Source: an uncultured Dehalococcoidia bacterium
GTDB lineage: Bacteria > Chloroflexota > Dehalococcoidia > Lucifugimonadales > G958296245
Reading direction: 5' to 3'
NCBI GenBank assembly: GCA_958296245.1
Contig: OY282458.1
Location: forward strand, 2,608,197-2,672,196
DNA: 64,000 bases
Shown: in pieces, positions 9,531-55,418 of the stretch
Layout of the letters: every line of letters starts with the position of its first letter
How positions within the stretch are numbered: position 1 is the first letter of the stretch
Translations under genes and position numbers: made by a program
The notes under the pieces: model-generated
Databases searched by the model: none
Seen by the model: the letters and a program-made list of their open reading frames with translations, nothing else
What the model was told of the DNA's origin: nothing

Positions 9531-10343
9531 TCAGCCGTACGCAGGCGGTTGGACCAACTCCACCCGCACGTGGTCCGGTCCCTTGGCGGTGGCCGACCTG
9601 CTCCCGTCGGAGGCCTGAGCCGGCGGCCCCACGACCTCCACCCCCTTTTCCCGCAGCCGATCCAACGCGGCGTCGAGGTCGTGGGTCTCCAGGCCGAAGT
9701 GGTCCAGCCCGTAGTGGGGTCCGGGATACGCCTCGGCTGTCGGCTGCCCCGGCTGGGGACTGCTCACGTTGAGGAGGGTCCCGCCTATCATGACGCGGAT
9801 CCGTTCGGACGCGGCGTCCCCGAACTCGCCGGCGATGCTGCCGTCGAATACGTCGGCCCACCACCGGGCGGCCGCCCACGGGTCCGCCGCCCTGACGTGC
9901 AGATGGTGCAGGCGCACCATCTCGCGGAAGAGGTTCTGGCCGGAGCCGGTCGGCTCCCAGTAGAAGGCGGGCTGCTGTAGCTCTATGCGCAGCCGGTCGG
10001 GGCCCTCTATGTCGGCCTTCGTGTCTGAGACGTCGTTGCCCTCGAAGCCGGCCCCCACCGGCCTCAGTATCGCCGCGCCGCGCGCATGGGCGCGGGCCGC
10101 GATGCTTGCGGCGTCGTTGGTCTCCAACCCGAAGTGCTCCAGTCCGAAGTAGCGCCCCGAGTTCCCGGCTGGCAGCGGATCCGCCCCCGGCCCGTCTATC
10201 TTGAGCAGCGCCCCACCGAGCATCACGAGCAGCGAGCCCCCCGCCCGCTGCCCGACCACGGACGCTCCGAGCATGTCCGCGTACCATCGCGCCGTACTAT
10301 GCGGGTCGGGCGTCAACAGATGGACGTGGTGTAGACGAAACAT
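9531..10343 (-). CDS. Two-domain VOC (glyoxalase/dioxygenase fold) protein
   Basis: A 270-residue protein made of two vicinal-oxygen-chelate domains. Domain 1 starts LHHVHLLTPDP (about 4-14) and ends DRLRIELQQP (about 115-124). Domain 2 starts LHHLHVRAADP (about 144) and ends DHVRVELVQPP near the C-terminus. In each, a His near the start, a His in the middle (LEHFGLET, LDHFGLET) and a terminal Glu are placed as metal ligands usually are. VOC proteins include glyoxalases, extradiol dioxygenases and fosfomycin-resistance enzymes; two domains in one chain is common for extradiol-type enzymes. The reaction is not identifiable. It converges with the GH127 gene at 9488. Confidence 0.82.
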   Translation of the reverse strand: MFRLHHVHLLTPDPHSTARWYADMLGASVVGQRAGGSLLVMLGGALLKIDGPGADPLPAGNSGRYFGLEHFGLETNDAASIAARAHARGAAILRPVGAGFEGNDVSDTKADIEGPDRLRIELQQPAFYWEPTGSGQNLFREMVRLHHLHVRAADPWAAARWWADVFDGSIAGEFGDAASERIRVMIGGTLLNVSSPQPGQPTAEAYPGPHYGLDHFGLETHDLDAALDRLREKGVEVVGPPAQASDGSRSATAKGPDHVRVELVQPPAYG

Positions 10344-10849: not shown

Positions 10850-11734
10850 ATGCCTATAGAGAAAGCCGCTGAGGAGCTGGGACGAATCGTACCGCGCGGC
10901 CAGGACGTGGAGGTGCTGGGCTCGCACTTCGGAGGCGACAGGGGCCCCGCCGAGGGTCCGGTCTGGATCCGAGAGGGGGGGTACCTGCTCTTCAGCGACA
11001 TTACCAACGACCGGCGGATGAGGTGGGACCCCGAGGGCGGCTTCAGCGTGGCCCAGCAGGGCACGAACCGCCACAACGGGCTGACCCGTGACCGACAGGG
11101 CAGGCTGATAGCGTGCGAGCACGACGGGAGACGGGTAACGCGGGTGGAGGCTGACGGGGGCATCACGGTCGTCGCCAACCAATACCGAGGTTGGCGTCTG
11201 AACAGGCCTAACGACGCCGTCGTCAGGTCCGACGGGAGCATCTACTTTACCGACCCTGACACGTTCGACGTCGACTCGGAGCTGGACCTGTTCGGCGTAT
11301 ACAAAGTTTCACCCGACCTCAGCCGCATCAACTTGCTTGTCAGAGACTTCGTACTACCCAACGGGCTGGCCTTCTCCCCGGACGAGAGCGTCCTCTACGT
11401 CGGCGACTCGCGGAGGGGCCACGTCAGGGCGTTCGGGGTGGAGCCCAACGGCAGGCTGGCCCTGGCGACCGACCGCGTGCTGTGCGTCCTCGACGGAGAC
11501 GGGCCAGGCGCCCCGGACGGCATGAAGGTGGACGTAGAAGGCAACATCTACTGCACGGGACCCGGGGGGATATATATCATCGACCCCTCGGGCAAGCATC
11601 TGGGCAGGATCCTGACCGGCGGCGAGCCGCCCTCCAACGCGGCCTGGGGCGGTGACGACTGGAAGACCCTCTTCTACACCACCCGGCACAGCCTCGGCAG
11701 GATAAGGCTTAACATCCCGGGCGTGCCCGTCTAA
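10850..11734 (+). CDS. SMP-30/gluconolactonase-family beta-propeller hydrolase
   Basis: A 294-residue six-bladed propeller of the SMP-30/gluconolactonase/LRE family. The ATG at 10850 follows GGAGG by 5 nt; the longer open frame runs into the upstream repeat element and is rejected. The metal residues expected in this family are present: Glu in RGPAEGPVW near residue 32, Asn in RPNDAVV near 120 and Asp in APDGMKVD near 225. Such enzymes open sugar lactones with Ca or Zn, so it fits the other sugar-handling genes here (GH127, Gfo/Idh). No signal peptide is visible. Likely substrate: an aldonolactone, unproven. Confidence 0.87.
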   Translation: MPIEKAAEELGRIVPRGQDVEVLGSHFGGDRGPAEGPVWIREGGYLLFSDITNDRRMRWDPEGGFSVAQQGTNRHNGLTRDRQGRLIACEHDGRRVTRVEADGGITVVANQYRGWRLNRPNDAVVRSDGSIYFTDPDTFDVDSELDLFGVYKVSPDLSRINLLVRDFVLPNGLAFSPDESVLYVGDSRRGHVRAFGVEPNGRLALATDRVLCVLDGDGPGAPDGMKVDVEGNIYCTGPGGIYIIDPSGKHLGRILTGGEPPSNAAWGGDDWKTLFYTTRHSLGRIRLNIPGVPV

Positions 11735-11740
11735 CTGCGC

Positions 11741-12724
11741 TCAGAGCACCTCGTGAAGCAGCTTGCGCTCCTCCAAGATGTCATAGGCAAAGTCGTTCTG
11801 GACGTCGCGCCAGACTGAGTGGACGTGATTGGCCCCGTTCTGCTGGTTGTCGAACTCGACCAGGAAGTTGGGTCCCACGATGTTGTAGTAGTGGCCCTTC
11901 CCCTTCTGCATGGCTCCGCCCCAGGCGAAGTAGACGGCGTCCAACTCGCCCTCGCGCAGAGCCGCCAGCTTCCCCTCGGCAACGTCGGGCGCCGCCTGCT
12001 TGACGTACTCCGCCGCCAGGGACATCAGCATGTCCCTCTGGGCCGGACTCATCCGGGACGCCGCCAGCCCCTGTTCGGGCGGCAGCATGGGCCTAGTCGC
12101 GTTGTAAGTGATGATCTCATGCGGAACTTTCTCGAAGAGAAGGGCCTTAGAGATTTGACCTCTGTCGAAGCTGTCGATCAGCTCGAAAGCCAGGTCCTCC
12201 CTGGCGCCGAGTAAGCGCAGGCCCTCGCTGGGGCCGTACCTGACACGCGCCGGGTTGGAGCCGAAGAAGAGCGGCGTTGTGGAGATTACCTCATCTCCCC
12301 AGGCGCTGAGGTTCAACGACATGTGGTGGCCCTCCGCCTTCCAACCCCATGGGCCCTCGCCTTTAGGGCTGCCGAAGACGGTGAAGTAATAGAGCTCCGG
12401 GTCGCGGCGGTACCTGGCGTGTCCCTCGTCCTTCTCGACCTGGGCCAGTATCAACTCGTGGTCGATGATGCCCCTTGCCTTTCGGTACGCCCCCGCGCTC
12501 AGGCCGCTCTCCATGACGGCAAACGCCAAGCGCCGCTGGGCGGGGCTCATGTCCCTGATGGGCAGTCCGTGCCGGTTCTGGGGGCGATGAATCCAGTACA
12601 CGCGCTCCACGTCCAAGTAGTGGTACTCGACCTTTGCTCTCTGCTCCGGGAGCAGGCTGTCCAGGAACCGCGCGCTGGCCTCCGCCATCCGTCTCGCGGT
12701 GGTGGGAGCGGCTTCTATGGCCAT
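11741..12724 (-). CDS. DUF3500 family protein
   Basis: A 327-residue protein that I recognise as DUF3500 (PF12006): SPAQRRLAF, GYYFTVFG-like (YYFTVFGSP), WGWKAEGHHMSLN and a C-terminal HVHSVWRDVQNDFAYD block. Function is unknown. The EGHH and NHVHSVWRD segments carry well-placed His and Asp residues, so a metal-dependent enzyme is possible. GGGAGG lies 6 nt before the ATG at 12724. The C-terminus ends only 7 bp from the SMP-30 stop on the opposite strand, a tight convergent junction. No signal peptide was seen, although some relatives are exported. Confidence 0.8.
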   Translation of the reverse strand: MAIEAAPTTARRMAEASARFLDSLLPEQRAKVEYHYLDVERVYWIHRPQNRHGLPIRDMSPAQRRLAFAVMESGLSAGAYRKARGIIDHELILAQVEKDEGHARYRRDPELYYFTVFGSPKGEGPWGWKAEGHHMSLNLSAWGDEVISTTPLFFGSNPARVRYGPSEGLRLLGAREDLAFELIDSFDRGQISKALLFEKVPHEIITYNATRPMLPPEQGLAASRMSPAQRDMLMSLAAEYVKQAAPDVAEGKLAALREGELDAVYFAWGGAMQKGKGHYYNIVGPNFLVEFDNQQNGANHVHSVWRDVQNDFAYDILEERKLLHEVL

Positions 12725-46496: not shown

Positions 46497-46914
46497 TGGA
46501 GGCCACGGTTCCACTGCCGCCGGAGACGGCCTACCTTGGCAAGTATGCGGCTGCTGGAAGAGCCGCTGACCGCCCTGCTTCTGCTCCAACCGCTGCCCCG
46601 GCGACCTCATCCTCAAGACCTACGACCCCGCCAGAGCCATGCGTGGCGCCGGAGTCCCCGTCATAGGCGGATTCCAAACGCCGATGGAGAAGGAATGCCT
46701 GCGCCTGCTGCTCAGAGGCGCCCAACCCGTGGTCGTCTGCCCGGCGCGCGGCATCGACAACATGCGTATCCCCCGCGACTCGCGCGACCCTCTGAACGCT
46801 GGTAGGATGCTGGTACTGTCGCTCTTTCCATCATCTCAACGCAGGCCAACCGCAGAGACGGCGGCTCAGCACAACGACCTCGTAGTGGCCCTAGCTCAGC
46901 AGGTTGGGGGCTGA
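46497..46914 (+). pseudogene. Frameshifted DprA/SLOG-like Rossmann protein
   Basis: Three successive frames give one continuous homologue-like protein. Frame 1 from ATG 46497 reads ETAYLGKYA; after one extra G near 46549 frame 2 reads LLEEPLTAL; after one extra C near 46578 frame 3 reads FCSNRCPGDLILKTYDPARA, then GGFQTPMEKECLRLLLRGAQ and VVVCPARGID, ending at 46914. I recognise the last blocks from a small DprA-like family without a firm function. Two single-base insertions in 30 bases imply decay or sequencing error. It is placed between the tRNA cluster and a restriction-type island. Confidence 0.65.
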
Positions 46915-46968: not shown

Positions 46969-48933
46969 ATGATGGGTGAAGAACCACTCAAGCTGAAGTT
47001 CATTGGTGCACTAATCGAACAGTTAGGTGCCCAACTGTATCCGAGTGCGACGGCCACCGTAGCAGAGCTTATCTCCAATGCGTGGGATGCGGATGCCCAG
47101 AACGTGTGGGTCAGAATTCCATTTGGACAGTCTTGGAGCACAGGCGGCACAATAGAAGTCCTAGATGACGGTCATGGGATGACGAGGGAACAAGCGCAGT
47201 CGCAATACCTGATAGTCGGTCGGAAGCGACGGCTTCAGGACAAAGGACAAACTCAAGGCGGCCGGCCAGTTCACGGCCGGAAGGGAATAGGCAAGCTCGC
47301 GGCTTTCGGGACAGCAGAAATTCTCGATTGCTACACAGTCCGACAAGGACAAGCAGTGTCATTCCGGCTTGACTACGACGAAATCAGAAAGGCGGACCCC
47401 GGGACAGACTGTGAAGTCAAGGAAACTACCGGGCAAGAACCCCTCTATTCGGCAGATCATTCGCTTCTCTCTAATGGAACCAGAATTCGGCTTTCCAGAC
47501 TGCGTCTAAAGCGCGCTATCTCTGAAGACCAGTTCATGAAGTCAATGTCCCGGCGCTTTGCGATAGACCAGACTGTTATGCGAGTGTTTATCAATGGGGA
47601 GCAGCTCCAACGGTTCGACATGGACCTGGAGTTCCGGTTTCCGAAAGATGGACAACCTGCCGGGTACTTAGGTCAAGTTGGAGTTGATGGGTGGGGAACT
47701 GAGAATCTCCTTAATGGCAAAGAAGTCCGATGGTGGATCGGTTTTACGCCTAAGCCTCTTGAAGCTGAATACTTGCGCGGTATTTCTATCCTGGGACGCG
47801 GGAAGCTGCTACAAAGACCCTTTATGTTTGAACGCGCTCAAGGAGTGCGAGGTCAACTTGGACAAGAGTACGTAGTTGGAGAAGTAGTCGCTGACTGGTT
47901 GGATACTGGCACAGATGTCGAGGACGATCTGATCCAAACGAACCGTGACCAGCTGCAGCTGGAGGATGACAGGGTGCAGGAAGTGCTTCAGTGGGGCCGG
48001 CTCAGGCTGGATTGGGCTCTGTCCCAGCGACAGGACAAGCGTCAAGAGAAAGCTGCGAAGTCAATTCAAACCCCGGACTTAACAGAACTGCTTAAAGATT
48101 TCACCAAGACTGAGCAACGGCATCTAGGTGACATTGCGATTAGGGCCGCTAAAATCGGAGACCCCGACCCTGAAGATGTCCACGACTTCATGGTGGAAGT
48201 AATCAACGGGTTTAATGACAAGGCGGTTCGGGAACTCATGGAGCGTGTCCAGTATGAGGACGAGGGGTTCCAAAGCAACTTTTGGGGACTCGTCAGAGAG
48301 TTTTCATTGATCGATGCTAGAAAGAACTATAGCTTAATTCAGGCTCGACTTAAGACAATTGAACGGCTCGATGCGGCAATTAAGGCTGGAGCTACGGAAG
48401 TTCCAGAGATTCATAACGTCATCCGAGAATTCCCCTGGATTCTTGATCCGAGATGGAGTCTTCTAGGCGACGAAGTGGACCTTGATGATCTGCAAGAACG
48501 ATATAAGCCTACTCTAGATCAAGAAACAGGTCAGAGGCTCGACTTTCTGTTCATTCTAAAACCTAAAGCGCCAGCCCCCTTGGACGAAATCCTGATCGTT
48601 GAAATAAAGAGAGGTATGAAATCCAATGGTAAAACTCATCGGGTGAGTGAAAACGAGGTGCACAAGTTCCATTCCTACGTGCTTGGGGTCTATGCAGGCT
48701 ACAATCGAAACACTTCTCCACCATCGCTCAATGGCTTGATGATCGCCAATGGATACACTGAGAGAGCGGACAGGACCAGAAGGAGCTTGGAGCAAGTCAG
48801 AGAGGTCAAGCTCGATTTCCAAACGTGGGGCAGCGTAATAGAAAACACCAAGCTACTTCACACTGGCTGGTTAGAGGTTACGCGATCTAGCGGAGGTTCC
48901 ATAGTCAAACGAGAAGACGAGACAAAAACGTGA
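46969..48933 (+). CDS. GHKL (MORC/MutL-like) ATPase fused to PD-(D/E)XK nuclease
   Basis: A 654-residue fusion. The N-terminal GHKL ATPase has the N-box AELISNAWDA (Glu33, Asn37, Asp40), the G1 box DDGHGM (66-71) and the lid GRKGIGKLA (103-111), as in MutL, Hsp90 and MORC. A helical middle (about 340-470) leads to a nuclease with Asp525 (RLDFLF) and Glu545-x-Lys547 (LIVEIKRG), a PD-(D/E)XK core. It starts at one of two adjacent ATGs behind AGGGGGAG. The gene is visibly AT-richer than its neighbours, pointing to transfer. Vsr and a C5 methyltransferase follow, so restriction is the likely role. Confidence 0.85.
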   Translation: MMGEEPLKLKFIGALIEQLGAQLYPSATATVAELISNAWDADAQNVWVRIPFGQSWSTGGTIEVLDDGHGMTREQAQSQYLIVGRKRRLQDKGQTQGGRPVHGRKGIGKLAAFGTAEILDCYTVRQGQAVSFRLDYDEIRKADPGTDCEVKETTGQEPLYSADHSLLSNGTRIRLSRLRLKRAISEDQFMKSMSRRFAIDQTVMRVFINGEQLQRFDMDLEFRFPKDGQPAGYLGQVGVDGWGTENLLNGKEVRWWIGFTPKPLEAEYLRGISILGRGKLLQRPFMFERAQGVRGQLGQEYVVGEVVADWLDTGTDVEDDLIQTNRDQLQLEDDRVQEVLQWGRLRLDWALSQRQDKRQEKAAKSIQTPDLTELLKDFTKTEQRHLGDIAIRAAKIGDPDPEDVHDFMVEVINGFNDKAVRELMERVQYEDEGFQSNFWGLVREFSLIDARKNYSLIQARLKTIERLDAAIKAGATEVPEIHNVIREFPWILDPRWSLLGDEVDLDDLQERYKPTLDQETGQRLDFLFILKPKAPAPLDEILIVEIKRGMKSNGKTHRVSENEVHKFHSYVLGVYAGYNRNTSPPSLNGLMIANGYTERADRTRRSLEQVREVKLDFQTWGSVIENTKLLHTGWLEVTRSSGGSIVKREDETKT

Positions 48934-48937
48934 AGTA

Positions 48938-49423
48938 ATGCATAGTCCAATGGACGTTATGGCCCCCCGCCAGCGCTATCTTGCCATGGCGCATAACCGG
49001 GGAAGAACCGGTCCTGAGCGAGCCTTAGCTTCAGGACTATGGCGTCGAGGGGCACGGTACTTCACTCACGAAGGCTATAAATCCGTCAGAGGCGAGCGGC
49101 TTCCTGGAAATCCTGACATGGTATTCCCTCGAAGACGGATCGTCATCTTTGTTGACGGGTGCTTCTGGCACGGTTGCCCCAAATGCCGCAAGCACTCGGG
49201 ATTGAGCGGCGAGTTCTGGGTGAATAAGATAAGCGCCAACAGAGAACGAGACCTTCGATTCACGAAGGAGCTAACAGACGCCGGCTGGACAGTGTTTCGT
49301 ATTCCAGAGCACGACGTTAGAACCAAGACGGCACTCGCACTGACCATCGACCGCCTGGTTCCGCATATACGGGGAGCGCTCCCAAAGAGAACTACCTTCG
49401 TTGTGGGAGACGATGGTGTCTAG
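48938..49423 (+). CDS. vsr: Very short patch repair (Vsr)-type endonuclease
   Basis: A 161-residue Vsr-type nuclease. The core is GNPDMVFPRRRIVIFVDGCF followed by WHGCPKC: Asp60 corresponds to the metal-binding Asp of E. coli Vsr and the FVDGCFWHGC block supplies the zinc/active-site Cys and His. Classical Vsr nicks T:G mismatches caused by deaminated 5-methylcytosine; in restriction islands Vsr-like enzymes may act as the restriction nuclease. The usual WE before the last strand reads PEHDV here. It starts 5 bp after the ATPase stop and overlaps the methyltransferase by 11 bp, a clear operon. Confidence 0.9.
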   Translation: MHSPMDVMAPRQRYLAMAHNRGRTGPERALASGLWRRGARYFTHEGYKSVRGERLPGNPDMVFPRRRIVIFVDGCFWHGCPKCRKHSGLSGEFWVNKISANRERDLRFTKELTDAGWTVFRIPEHDVRTKTALALTIDRLVPHIRGALPKRTTFVVGDDGV

Positions 49424-50741
49424 TCAGCCGCTCCGCGACTTCATACTACAGGATAGGCCAGCGGCGGCAGCTCCCTGGACTGCCATTTCCCTGTTTTCAG
49501 GGGCTGGTTTGAGTGACCTGGGGTACGAGATGGCCGGGTTCCAGTTCCTCGTCCAGGTCGAGATGGACCAGAGGCGAGCCGCCATTGGTTCCGACAACTT
49601 CCCGTCGTCCACGTGGCTTGTTCGCGATGTCCGCGTCAGCCATGACGAGATCGCGGCTGCCTATTGCCGATCTACGTCCCGGCGTCTGGACCTGTTGATG
49701 GCTACTCCCCCATGCCAGGGCATGAGTAGCTCGAATCCCAGCAGGGGCAAGCGGCAGACCCCGCAAGCGAAGGCATTGGAAGAAAAGAACCGGCTTATGC
49801 TAGAGGTCATTCCACTTGCCCAGTTGTTGGAGCCGAGGATAATCGTCGTCGAAAACGTTCGTCAGATTCTGACGCTCAACGTCGAGTACGATGGGGCCGA
49901 GGGCCAGGTGGTTGACCTGCTCCGCGACCGCCTACAGGACTATGAAGTGTTCCCTAACGTGGTGAACGTGGCCGACTACGGTATCCCCCAGGTCAGAAGG
50001 CGTGCCCTGATCGTGGCGGTACACAAGGACGAGACGTGTCCGGAGTCGATGCTATCCCGAAATCCAACCCCATTGCCGCGTCCAACTCACGCTGAGCAGT
50101 CAAACAATGGAGTGCTACCGTGGGTGAGTATTCGCGAGTGGTTGGAGGCCATGGAGTACGAACCGCTGGACGCAAGATCCAAGGATGACGCACGCGGGAC
50201 TCACCCCTTGCACTTTGTTCCCGCGTATGGGCCAGACCGATATCAACAGGTCAGTGAAATACCGGCACACTCAGGGCGCAGTGCCTACGACAACGACACC
50301 TGCCCGTCGTGCGGTAGGCAACAGGTCGACACCAGCTTGATACTATGCCCTGCTTGCGGCGTCGTAATGCGCAATAGACCCTACGTTGAAAGAAACGGGC
50401 GACCGGCCCTAATCAGGGGGTTCCACTCAAGCTACAGACGAATGAATCCTGTAAGACCCGCGTATACCATAACCACCAATTCAAGCCACGTAGGCAGCGA
50501 CTTCAAGATTCATCCCTGGGAGAACAGAGTCCTCAGCATCTTGGAGTGTGCCGACTTGCAGACCGTCCCAAGGTTCTACGACTGGACACGAGCGAAGGAG
50601 GGCAGAACACTCTATCTTATCCGTAACTTGGTTGGAGAGGCGTTTCCCACCTACTTCACTTACCTACACGGTCGAGCCCTGTCTGATCTCCTGTCCAGTT
50701 CTGCGTCACCGACACGTGCCCCATCTCCCCTGCTACACTGA
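49413..50741 (+). CDS. DNA (cytosine-5) methyltransferase with zinc-finger insert
   Basis: A 442-residue C5 methylase. Motif I is SLFSGAGLS, motif IV ATPPCQGMSSS with nucleophile Cys101, motif VI VVENVRQ (147-149) and motif VIII QVRRRALIVA. Between VIII and IX, in the target-recognition region, Cys297, Cys300, Cys312 and Cys315 form a C-x2-C...C-x2-C ribbon, unusual for type II enzymes. Motif X is NLVGEAFP. It modifies a site that cannot be read from the sequence. ATG 49413 follows GGGAG; it overlaps vsr by 11 bp. Confidence 0.92.
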   Translation: MVSSQPLRDFILQDRPAAAAPWTAISLFSGAGLSDLGYEMAGFQFLVQVEMDQRRAAIGSDNFPSSTWLVRDVRVSHDEIAAAYCRSTSRRLDLLMATPPCQGMSSSNPSRGKRQTPQAKALEEKNRLMLEVIPLAQLLEPRIIVVENVRQILTLNVEYDGAEGQVVDLLRDRLQDYEVFPNVVNVADYGIPQVRRRALIVAVHKDETCPESMLSRNPTPLPRPTHAEQSNNGVLPWVSIREWLEAMEYEPLDARSKDDARGTHPLHFVPAYGPDRYQQVSEIPAHSGRSAYDNDTCPSCGRQQVDTSLILCPACGVVMRNRPYVERNGRPALIRGFHSSYRRMNPVRPAYTITTNSSHVGSDFKIHPWENRVLSILECADLQTVPRFYDWTRAKEGRTLYLIRNLVGEAFPTYFTYLHGRALSDLLSSSASPTRAPSPLLH

Positions 50742-51154: not shown

Positions 51155-53224
51155 TTGTGGCCTATCGCGCTCGCCCTACTTGGAGTTCTCGCAGTCGCCT
51201 GCTCTGGGAACCCAGATGTGACGACCCCGCCTGTGACGCCCACACCTGTGACGCCCCCGCCTGTGACGCCCACACCTGTGACGCCCCCGCCTGTGACGAC
51301 CTCCACTCCCGAAGAGGGACCGGCTCTCACCACTCATCTGTACGCGCTGGAGAGCGAGTCCGTCAGACTCGAACGTTTCACCAGGCGCGGGGGAGCCATT
51401 GAAAACATGGGTGACGACCTGCTCGTCGTTATGCCGAAGGGAAGGTTTGCCATGGTCTTCCGGGACGGGGCTGTGGAATATCTCGACGGCAACGTTCCGA
51501 TGAATGAAGCGTCTCTTGAGGAGCATGAGGATTACGATAACCCAACTTTCGATCCAAGTGCCTTTCGAGTCGCCGATATTCTGTTGAAGGAACTGGAGGA
51601 AGGGCGTTACGAGTTGTTCGCTACACACCATTACTTTACCGGAACGTGCATCCGGTTCAGGTTGTCGTCCACTACGATTCTACGGGACGAAGAGAGCGTC
51701 AAGATCCTGCCGGGCTGGAGGACGATATTCGACGCGGAACCCTGTCTTCCCCTTCTCGGCTTCATCGGCTTCACAGGAGATCAGGCAGGCGGGAAGATGT
51801 TGACGGACGGCGCGGACCACCTGCTGGCGATAATCGGGGGCCATGGGATAGACGGATGGCGAGGGCGACCGACGTTCGATCCTGACGTCCACTTGGGCAA
51901 ACTCCTCCGTATTGCCATCGAAACAGGAGAGGCGGAGGTGCTGGCCATCGGTTTTCGCAACTCACAAGGGCTGGTGAGGGATGCGGACGGCAACCTCTGG
52001 GCGCCGGACCACGGGCCGCGAGGCGGCGACGAGTTGAACCTGCTGGAGCGGGGAGGCAACTATGGCTGGCCCTTGGTCACCTACGGGGTTAAATATAGCG
52101 GTGAGGTTCCCCCGAACATGGAGGATGAGGAGGTGGGCCGGCATGATGGCTTCCTGCGGCCTGCATTCGCCTGGGTCCCGTCGCCGGCCCTGTCCGCCAT
52201 TGCCGTCAACGACGAGAAGCAGTTTCCCCTGTGGAAAGACGATCTGCTGATTGCTTCGCTGAAAGATCGATCCCTCTTCCGAGTCCGCCGTCACGGGACG
52301 GACGTGCAGTACGTCGAGCGGATCGAAGTCGGCTACCGTATCCGAGACCTGACGTTCATGCCAGACGGACGCATGGCCCTGTTGAGCGATGGAGCACAGG
52401 TTACGTTCCTGAGCCGTTCCCCAAGGTACTGCGATGAGGAATCTCGGAATCGCCGCGACGTCTACTCGATCAACTGCGAGTCCGCCCCCGCATTGCCGCC
52501 GCCGGACTCACCGGATACGGAATACACGGGGCCGGCCGTTCCGTCCGGTAGCGGAAACCCGGACACGGACACGGCGGCAGGCGATCAGCTATTCGGTGTG
52601 CAATGCAGCACCTGCCACGACCTGAACGCCGAGCGGCACGGCCCCGGTCCGCACTTGGTCGGCGTAATCGGGCGGCGAGCGGGCGAGGTCGAGGGTTACC
52701 GATTTTCGGCTGCGTTCGATTCGTTGGACGTCGTCTGGACGCGGAACAGCATCACGCGGTTTCTCACTGACCCGGAGAGGTTCGCCCCAGGCACGTCCAT
52801 GTCGTCACACGGCATTGGAGAAGCGGAAGCCCGCGCCATAGCCGACTATCTTAACAGTCTCAATCATCTGTCCCGGTTAGTCAGAGACAGCCAGCCGGCA
52901 ATCAGCTCTGACTTCGACGTTTATCTCAGCGAAAATGCGCTGGTCTACGTCAAGGAGCCGTGCGCGCCGGCCGACACGGAGGCGATGTTCTTCCTCGCCC
53001 TGTATCCGGTTGACGTGAACGCTCTCCCCGACCATCGCCAGCCGCACGGCTTCGACAACCTGGACTTCGAGTTCTACTGGTTCGGCGGAGTATTCGACGG
53101 GAGATGTACGGCGACGGTCCCTCTCCCTAAGTACGCTATTTCCAAAATCAGCACCGGCCAGTACGTCCCCGTGGAGGGCGGTTTCAACCATATCTGGGAG
53201 GGGGAGATACGCCTTGAACAGTAA
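51155..53224 (+). CDS. PQQ-dehydrogenase-like/cytochrome c lipoprotein, copy 1
   Basis: A protein of 689 residues from TTG 51155. It has a signal peptide and lipobox LAVAC (Cys14), then a linker of five VTP-rich pentapeptides (PTPVT/PPPVT). A six-bladed propeller of the glucose/sorbosone dehydrogenase type follows: GFRNSQGLVRDADGNLWAPD, GPRGGDELNLLERGGNYGWP and FAWVPSPALSAIAVND. A class I cytochrome c domain has Cys484-x2-Cys487-His488 with Met in GTSMSSHG as the distal ligand. It would oxidise a sugar or alcohol outside the membrane and pass electrons to its heme. Start doubtful: the ribosome site is poor and an upstream G tract may matter. Confidence 0.85.
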   Translation: MWPIALALLGVLAVACSGNPDVTTPPVTPTPVTPPPVTPTPVTPPPVTTSTPEEGPALTTHLYALESESVRLERFTRRGGAIENMGDDLLVVMPKGRFAMVFRDGAVEYLDGNVPMNEASLEEHEDYDNPTFDPSAFRVADILLKELEEGRYELFATHHYFTGTCIRFRLSSTTILRDEESVKILPGWRTIFDAEPCLPLLGFIGFTGDQAGGKMLTDGADHLLAIIGGHGIDGWRGRPTFDPDVHLGKLLRIAIETGEAEVLAIGFRNSQGLVRDADGNLWAPDHGPRGGDELNLLERGGNYGWPLVTYGVKYSGEVPPNMEDEEVGRHDGFLRPAFAWVPSPALSAIAVNDEKQFPLWKDDLLIASLKDRSLFRVRRHGTDVQYVERIEVGYRIRDLTFMPDGRMALLSDGAQVTFLSRSPRYCDEESRNRRDVYSINCESAPALPPPDSPDTEYTGPAVPSGSGNPDTDTAAGDQLFGVQCSTCHDLNAERHGPGPHLVGVIGRRAGEVEGYRFSAAFDSLDVVWTRNSITRFLTDPERFAPGTSMSSHGIGEAEARAIADYLNSLNHLSRLVRDSQPAISSDFDVYLSENALVYVKEPCAPADTEAMFFLALYPVDVNALPDHRQPHGFDNLDFEFYWFGGVFDGRCTATVPLPKYAISKISTGQYVPVEGGFNHIWEGEIRLEQ
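51220..51302 (+). repeat. 15-bp coding minisatellite, 5 units
   Basis: A tandem run of GTGACGCCCACACCT-type units alternates with GTGACGCCCCCGCCT, encoding PTPVT and PPPVT. The second paralogue has nine units of the same kind at about 53363-53505. Confidence 0.85.
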
Positions 53225-53276
53225 CGGGAACAACTTGCAAGGCCTCGGACTGAACAATCCCTGGCGCGCCCTGACC

Positions 53277-55418
53277 GTGCGCTATAAGAAGGCCGCGTTG
53301 TGGCCTATCGCGCTCGTCCTGCTTGGAGTTCTCGCAGTCGCCTGCTCTGGGAACCCAGATGTGACGCCCACACCTGTGACGACCACACCTGTAACGCCCA
53401 CACCTGTGACGCCCACACCTGTGACGCCCACGCCTGTGACGCCCACGCCTGTGACGCCCACACCTGTGACGCCCACACCTGTGACGCCCACGCCTGTGAC
53501 GACATCCACTCCCGAAGAAGGACCGGCTCTCACCACTCATCTGTACGCGCTCGAGAGCTATTCAGTCAGACTCGAAGATTTCGACGGGCACGGGGGAGCC
53601 ATTGCAAGCATGGGTGACGACCTGCTCGTCGTTATGCCGAAGGGACGGTTTGCCATGGTCTTCCGGGACGGGGCTGTGGAATATCTCGACGGCAACGTTC
53701 CGATGAATGAAACGTCTCTTGAGGAGCATGAGGATTACGGTGACCAGCGTTTCACTCCGAATGACTTTCGAGTTGCAGATATTCTGTTGAAGGAGCTTGG
53801 GGAAGGGCGTTACGAGTTGTACGCAACGCACTATTACTTTACCGGCGAGTGCATCCGGTTCAGGTTGTCGTCCACGGCGATTCTACGAGACGAAGAGCGC
53901 GTCACGGTCCTGCCGGATTGGAGGACGATATTCGACGCAGAACCCTGCCTGCCCCTTATCGACTTCGCAGGGCATCAGGCAGGCGGGAAGATGTTGACGG
54001 ACGGTGCGGACCACCTGCTGGCGATAATCGGGGACCTCGGAGTAAGTGGATGGTGGAATCGACCGCCATTTGATCCCGCCTTGGATATGAGCAAACTCTT
54101 TCGTATTGCCATCGAAACAGGAGAGGCGGAGGTGCTAGCTAGAGGTTTCCGCAATCCACAGGGGCTGGCGCGGGATGCGGACGGCAACCTCTGGGCGCCG
54201 GAACACGGGCCGCAAGGCGGGGACGAGTTGAACCTGCTGGAGCGAGGGGGGAACTATGGCTGGCCCCTGGTCTCCTACGGAGTTGAATATGGCGGTGTGG
54301 CTCCCCAGAACATGGAGGACGAGGAGGTGGGCCGGCACGACGGTTTCCGGCGCCCGGTATTCGCCTGGGTCCCGTCGCCGGCCCTGTCCGCCATCGCCGT
54401 CAACGACGAGCGGCATTTCCCCCTGTGGAAAGACGATCTGCTGATTGCTTCGCTGAAAGATCAATCCCTCTTCCGAGTCCGCCGTCACGGGACGGACGTG
54501 CAGTACGTCGAGAAGATTGAAGTCGGCTACCGCATCCGAGACCTGACGTTCATGCCGGACGGACGCATAGCCCTGTTGCGCGATGGACCGCGGGTTCATT
54601 TTCTGAGTCGTTCCCCAAGGTACTGCGATGAGGAATCTCGGAATCGCCGCGACATCTACTCGCTCGACTGCGAGTCCGGCGACGGCGATGCGGCGACGGA
54701 CTCACCGGGCGCGGGAGACCCGGGTACGGCAGCTCCGTCCGGTAAGGGAGACCCGGGTACGGACACGGCGGCAGGCGACCAGCTATTCGGCCTGCACTGC
54801 AACGTTTGTCACAACCTGAACGTCGAGTTGCACGGCCCCGGTCCGCACCTCGTCGGCGTAATCGGGCGGCGAGCGGGCGAGGTCGAAGGTTACCGATTTT
54901 CGGCTGCGTTCGATTCGTTGGACGTCGTCTGGACGCGGGACAGCATCACGCGGTTTCTCACCGACCCGGAGCAGTTTGCCCCGGGCACGTCCATGCCGCC
55001 ATCCGGCATTGGCGAAGCGGAAGCCCGCGCCATAGCCGACTACCTTAGCAGTCTCAATCATCTGTCCCGGTTAGTCAGAGACAGCCAGCCGGCAATCAGC
55101 TCCGACTTCGACGTTTATCTCAGCGAAAACACACTGGTCTACGTCAAGGAGCCGTGCGCGCCGGCCGACACGGAGGCGATGTTCTTCCTCGCCCTGTATC
55201 CGGTTGACGTGAACGCTATCCCCGACCATCGCCAGCAGCACGGCTTCGACAACCTGGACTTCGAGTTCTACTGGTTCGGCGGAGTATTCGACGGGAGATG
55301 TACGGCGACGGTGGCTCTCCCTGATTATGATATTGCCCGCATCAGCACCGGCCAGTACGTCCCCGTGGAGGGCGGTTTCAACCATATCTGGGAGGGGGAG
55401 TTCCGGCTTGGGGAGTAG
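53277..55418 (+). CDS. PQQ-dehydrogenase-like/cytochrome c lipoprotein, copy 2
   Basis: A 713-residue paralogue of copy 1, about 85-90 percent alike over most of its length. GTG 53277 gives VRYKKAALWPIALVLLG with a basic n-region and lipobox LAVAC; the frame is open from TTG 53214, inside the upstream stop region. The linker has nine PTPVT units against five in copy 1. The propeller is GFRNPQGLARDADGNLWAPE with GPQGGDELNLLERGGNYGWP, and the cytochrome c domain has Cys508-x2-Cys511-His512 with Met in GTSMPPSG. The nearly identical C-terminal 110 residues suggest recent duplication or gene conversion. The function should equal copy 1. Confidence 0.87.
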   Translation: MRYKKAALWPIALVLLGVLAVACSGNPDVTPTPVTTTPVTPTPVTPTPVTPTPVTPTPVTPTPVTPTPVTPTPVTTSTPEEGPALTTHLYALESYSVRLEDFDGHGGAIASMGDDLLVVMPKGRFAMVFRDGAVEYLDGNVPMNETSLEEHEDYGDQRFTPNDFRVADILLKELGEGRYELYATHYYFTGECIRFRLSSTAILRDEERVTVLPDWRTIFDAEPCLPLIDFAGHQAGGKMLTDGADHLLAIIGDLGVSGWWNRPPFDPALDMSKLFRIAIETGEAEVLARGFRNPQGLARDADGNLWAPEHGPQGGDELNLLERGGNYGWPLVSYGVEYGGVAPQNMEDEEVGRHDGFRRPVFAWVPSPALSAIAVNDERHFPLWKDDLLIASLKDQSLFRVRRHGTDVQYVEKIEVGYRIRDLTFMPDGRIALLRDGPRVHFLSRSPRYCDEESRNRRDIYSLDCESGDGDAATDSPGAGDPGTAAPSGKGDPGTDTAAGDQLFGLHCNVCHNLNVELHGPGPHLVGVIGRRAGEVEGYRFSAAFDSLDVVWTRDSITRFLTDPEQFAPGTSMPPSGIGEAEARAIADYLSSLNHLSRLVRDSQPAISSDFDVYLSENTLVYVKEPCAPADTEAMFFLALYPVDVNAIPDHRQQHGFDNLDFEFYWFGGVFDGRCTATVALPDYDIARISTGQYVPVEGGFNHIWEGEFRLGE
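53363..53505 (+). repeat. 15-bp coding minisatellite, 9 units
   Basis: Nine in-frame units of GTGACGCCCACACCT with small variants (ACGACCACACCT once) encode PTPVT repeats between the lipid anchor and the propeller. Such runs change length by replication slippage without breaking the frame. Confidence 0.87.

Follow-up and report, generated by a model that had tools for sequence, protein, structure and literature searches.

Proteins that join a GHKL-S5 module to a C-terminal nuclease of the RE fold, with E-D-ExK motifs, have been described as paraMORC3 by Iyer, Abhiman and Aravind (2008; PMC2292703), and are among the GHKL families of restriction-modification (R-M) operons that also encode a cytosine methylase (DCM) and Vsr (PMC2292703). 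The BbrUII/HgiDII family of restriction enzymes (NF050001) comprises a GHKL ATPase and a nuclease, encoded adjacent to a C5 methylase and often to Vsr, and M.HgiDII has been reported to methylate GTCGAC, with 5mC as the product (PMC5867850). The fusion of a GHKL ATPase to a nuclease and the three-gene make-up are thus already known from the 2008 description and from the HgiDII family.

In the present study we have analysed a stretch of 64,000 nucleotides, referred to as the window, which corresponds to bases 2608197-2672196 of the single 2.69 Mb contig that makes up the source genome of an uncultured Dehalococcoidia bacterium. Three intact genes, all on the + strand, are packed closely at 46969-50741. 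They encode a GHKL ATPase-nuclease (R, 46969..48933, 654 aa), a Vsr-like protein (V, 48938..49423, 161 aa) and a C5-cytosine methyltransferase (M, 49413..50741, with an ATG start at 49413 and an alternative TTG at 49401). All these parts had been placed correctly by a first-pass annotation of the DNA, as had the nuclease residues Asp525, Glu545 and Lys547 of R. The gap between R and V is 4 bp and the V and M genes overlap. Orthologous cassettes, the closest ones identified, are present in two other uncultured Dehalococcoidia MAGs, with proteins 86–93% identical to those of the window. The association of the three genes is therefore not a matter of chance. Linked genes for a restriction nuclease and a DNA methylase, both with intact catalytic motifs, are the general hallmark of type II R-M systems and are found here. 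The cassette is an ordinary system of this type, an uncharacterised example of a widespread and annotated class. Among 80 viral-contig loci with a homologous R, a C5 methylase is encoded in 76 and Vsr in 15 within the available flanks, and five relatives of R from Chloroflexota that score above the cut-off of the HgiDII family (NF050001) have M and/or V beside each R gene.

The N-terminal part of R (residues ~10-366) is assigned to the GHKL-S5 ATPases (HATPase_c_3, PF13589; E=1.3e-17), and is followed by a helical linker and a PD-(D/E)XK nuclease domain (residues ~477-595). The BbrUII/HgiDII model NF050001 aligns with R over residues 15-639 (E=1e-70), and type II REase models of PADLOC also match it. 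With 238.7 bits, R falls short of the NF050001 cut-off of 550, and it is only 26–29% identical to members above that threshold. R is hence related to the BbrUII/HgiDII family in sequence and is not a member of it, and the specificity and biochemistry of HgiDII or BbrUII are not transferable to it. The likeness to paraMORC3 extends to the order of the domains and to the intact E-D-ExK motifs, although no SFII helicase gene adjoins R and its assignment to subgroup 3 is by architecture only. The S5 motif of the MORC proteins proper, GhXhhpXXRhl, is not matched by R, in which the stretch GISILGRGKLL has G for the polar residue and K for R.

Homologues of R were collected from Chloroflexota genomes, plasmids and viral contigs and reduced at 80% identity to 66 sequences. 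The GHKL residues E33, N37, D66, G68, G103, K105, G106 and G108 are invariant in all 66, and G70 and K109 are retained in 65. The nuclease residues have not drifted either: Asp525 is conserved in 66/66, Glu545 in 64/66 (Asp in the other two) and Lys547 in 60/66 (Met in six), counts that include one row, L043, with a different C-terminus that is aligned at these positions by chance only. Glu477, without substitution in an alignment of 30 rows, completes the E-D-ExK signature of R (E477, D525, E545, K547). The refuting outcome named in the first-pass annotation, nuclease residues that vary among homologues, thus did not occur. An AlphaFold2 model made from the 30-row alignment (pLDDT 76) matches the MORC3 and MORC2 ATPases best over residues 10-366 (Z 24.3, rmsd 3.3, 298 residues); the next-best matches are Hsp90-type proteins and topoisomerase VI. 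The nuclease motif lies on strands 526-530 and 540-546 and a helix at 561-579, in the expected order, with a low pLDDT of 43-50 around residues 500-540. As the search was made with the full-length model, the missing match to a nuclease domain carries no weight. Judged from domain match and conserved residues, R is a GHKL-S5 ATPase fused to a C-terminal PD-(D/E)XK nuclease, in agreement with the GHKL ATPase-nuclease fusion of the first-pass annotation. The further claim made there, that this copy adds the nuclease to the ATPase, is to be revised, since fusions of this kind are typical of the class, as seen in paraMORC3 (PMC2292703), in the span of the NF050001 alignment and in the 66 homologues. 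Two R homologues of the same phylum, from genomes of 6-7 Mb (L043 4705-6576 and L044 4177-6078), match NF050001 over positions 1-372 only; their C-terminus is different, and they may lack the nuclease or carry another domain in its place.

M is assigned to the C5 methylases by PF00145 (E=5e-32). Motifs I, IV (PCQ), VI (ENV), VIII (QxRxR, here QVRRR) and X are present in order, and the fold of its AlphaFold2 model (pLDDT 83) matches C5 methylases. The cysteine insert noted earlier in its target-recognition region was recovered as Cys301, Cys304, Cys316 and Cys319 (codons within 50301..50357, + strand, numbered from the TTG at 49401), a CxxC...CxxC arrangement with a weak match to a zinc-ribbon model over residues 300-323. 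None of the four cysteines varies among 10 methylases of genomes and plasmids, nor among 18 when viral contigs are included, at identities down to 29%, and they are predicted to bind zinc as a structural ribbon. The methylases of the E. coli plasmid p12579_5, of P. aeruginosa pY89 and of viral contigs share these cysteines and the flanking residues of the target-recognition domain, although their restriction partners differ, being a small REase of 221 aa (PDLC03564) in p12579_5 and a GHKL R in pY89. As the insert also occurs without a GHKL R, it marks a methylase subfamily and not the R-V-M system. The cassette differs from HgiDII in this respect, M belonging to a different subfamily with the zinc-ribbon insert. 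No description of a four-cysteine-insert subfamily was found in the literature searched on zinc-ribbon target-recognition domains.

V scores 103.6 bits against the Vsr model TIGR00632, above the cut-off of 97.85, and its active-site stretch aligns with the structure of E. coli Vsr (1cw0; E=1e-13). The active-site Asp and His are present (D60 and H78, the latter in a DGCFWH motif), as is D105. V differs from E. coli Vsr in that the catalytic His64 is replaced by Asp73, also within DGCFWH, as in some R-M-linked relatives (L034, L037). In one relative (L048 2579-4357, - strand) V and M form a single open frame of 592 aa with no stop between them, whereas in the window they are separate genes that overlap; the single frame could reflect a true fusion or an indel introduced by sequencing. 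A second pair of C5 methylase and Vsr genes is encoded elsewhere in the source genome (G000:C1 1322940-1325265; L319, L321). The same contig encodes two more HATPase_c_3 proteins, at about 2314562 (L050) and 2285389 (L051), the former with GHKL domains at both ends and a resemblance to the HEF_HK histidine-kinase-like genes of PMC8011034.

The G+C content of the cassette is 51–58%, as against ~64% in a sample of the genome, which suggests that it was gained horizontally. A cluster of five tRNA genes precedes it. Directly upstream of R lies a degenerate DprA/PsyrA-like (SLOG) relic (46546..46914, + strand), which is probably a neighbour outside the R-M system. The corresponding gene is intact in L013 (4550-5941) and L048 (6360-7883) and is preceded there by a SMODS CD-NTase (PADLOC cyclase PDLC00790); the R-V-M cassette thus lies at a position that also harbours a CBASS-like gene pair. 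Downstream of the cassette, the window contains two tandem paralogues (51155-53224 and 53214-55418) with TPVTP repeat linkers and DNA stretches 84–93% identical, which by eye are sugar-dehydrogenase-like and cytochrome-c-like. In L013 the terminal (3') part of M and the bases after it (9661-9797) recur in two further downstream copies (11067-11203 and 12387-12493; 93–94% identity). Each copy adjoins the 3' terminus of a gene of 366-367 aa; the two genes are similar and in tandem, and the one tested is a weak NucS_C match.

Avoidance of palindromes was analysed in samples of 400-464 kb each from the source genome (G000), three other carriers (G022, G010 and G039) and a control (G003). Many G+C-rich palindromes are depleted in all of them and none of the depletions is specific to the carriers. 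GTCGAC occurs 250 times against 341 expected in the sample of the source genome, and 177 times against 190 in the control, figures that are not distinctive. Transfer of this site from HgiDII to the cassette was rejected, R being under the family cut-off and M in a different subfamily.

Comparison with other carriers revealed that R does not always share the history of its neighbours. Three loci (L042, L047 and L048) have the R-V-M order of the window and encode V proteins 71–89% and M proteins 71–81% identical to those of the window, their R proteins being only 25–27% identical. The target-recognition domain of M (71–80%) and its catalytic domain (73–82%) are about equally conserved in the three, and over all carriers compared the identity of M to that of the window is 67–81%. 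The case of L047 is the clearest, with 88.7% identity for V, 80.6% for M and 26.1% for R: its V and M resemble those of the window more than they do the V and M of L042 and L048, and its R is 76–81% identical to the R of the latter two. A tree built from 70 R proteins places these three in a clade of eight together with R genes of viral contigs (support 1.0), apart from the clade of the window's R, and accelerated divergence was accordingly rejected as the cause of the low identity. As V and M are conserved and R comes from another clade, R has, on these sequence comparisons, been replaced at least once next to a retained V-M pair. V is thus inherited with M and not with R, which ties it functionally to M and fits repair of deaminated 5-methylcytosine; V is most likely a T:G mismatch nickase that partners the 5-methylcytosine made by M.

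We consider it highly probable that the cassette is a horizontally acquired type II R-M system of the GHKL-nuclease class, in which R cuts, M protects and V repairs. R would recognise and cleave unmethylated copies of a short site, and its GHKL-S5 module may act, as in MORC and MutL, as an ATP-gated dimeric DNA clamp that positions or licenses the PD-(D/E)XK nuclease. M would place 5-methylcytosine in the site of R and thereby protect the host DNA, the site being read by the target-recognition domain with its putative structural zinc ribbon. V would nick beside the T of T:G mismatches that arise by deamination of 5-methylcytosine, from which very-short-patch repair would start. A site common to R, M and V and restriction of phages are predicted on the same grounds. 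The defence role proposed in the first-pass annotation is supported as that of an R-M system. The domains, the intact catalytic residues, the operon structure, the conserved association of the genes and the co-inheritance of V and M are all evident from the sequence itself.

The predicted preference of R for a defined site is the point at which a different reading could be put forward, namely that R is a conditional effector of Shedu or MORC type whose clamp senses the structure of phage DNA, whose nuclease is non-specific, and for which M only marks self. The C-termini of R relatives give weak matches to the SduA_C (Shedu) and NucS_C nuclease models, and MORC, the best structural match of R, is not a site-specific reader of DNA; the occurrence of the same V-M pair beside R proteins of 25–27% identity also means that R itself may have little need to read sequence. 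The relatives of R are, however, classed as type II restriction enzymes by both NCBIfam and PADLOC, and a C5 methylase adjoins R in 76 of the 80 viral-contig loci, as expected for a matched site, so that this reading appears unlikely to us. We regard it as very improbable that V is a second restriction nuclease acting with R on incoming DNA, although it adjoins R in the same direction with an intact Vsr active site and the change of His64 to Asp73 could alter its exact chemistry. Its score above the cut-off of a mismatch-endonuclease model, the absence of a detected Vsr from 65 of the 80 comparable loci, its passage with M across the exchange of R and the single V-M frame of L048 all speak against such a role, and the earlier suggestion of two nucleases, if taken as two restriction activities, is not upheld. 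Degraded genes adjoin the cassette, the SLOG relic being one, but the frames and catalytic motifs of R, V and M are all intact and their proteins remain 86–93% identical in two other genomes, and it is hardly credible that the cassette is a non-functional remnant of horizontal transfer.

Within the favoured reading of a type II R-M system, only the exchange of R and the conserved cysteine insert go beyond routine annotation. No account of the reason for a MORC-like ATPase in a type II restriction enzyme was found in the literature searched on GHKL type II enzymes. The invariant four-cysteine insert provides a marker of a methylase subfamily. We tentatively suggest, as a possibility we hold with some doubt, that V and the zinc-ribbon M together make up a portable unit of protection and repair, dedicated to one site, with which R is interchangeable between two clades of about 25% identity. 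If this is true, either the same site is cut by two widely divergent GHKL nucleases, or R itself hardly has to read sequence. Two very different R genes beside a near-identical V-M pair provide a natural experiment for locating the DNA-reading part of R.
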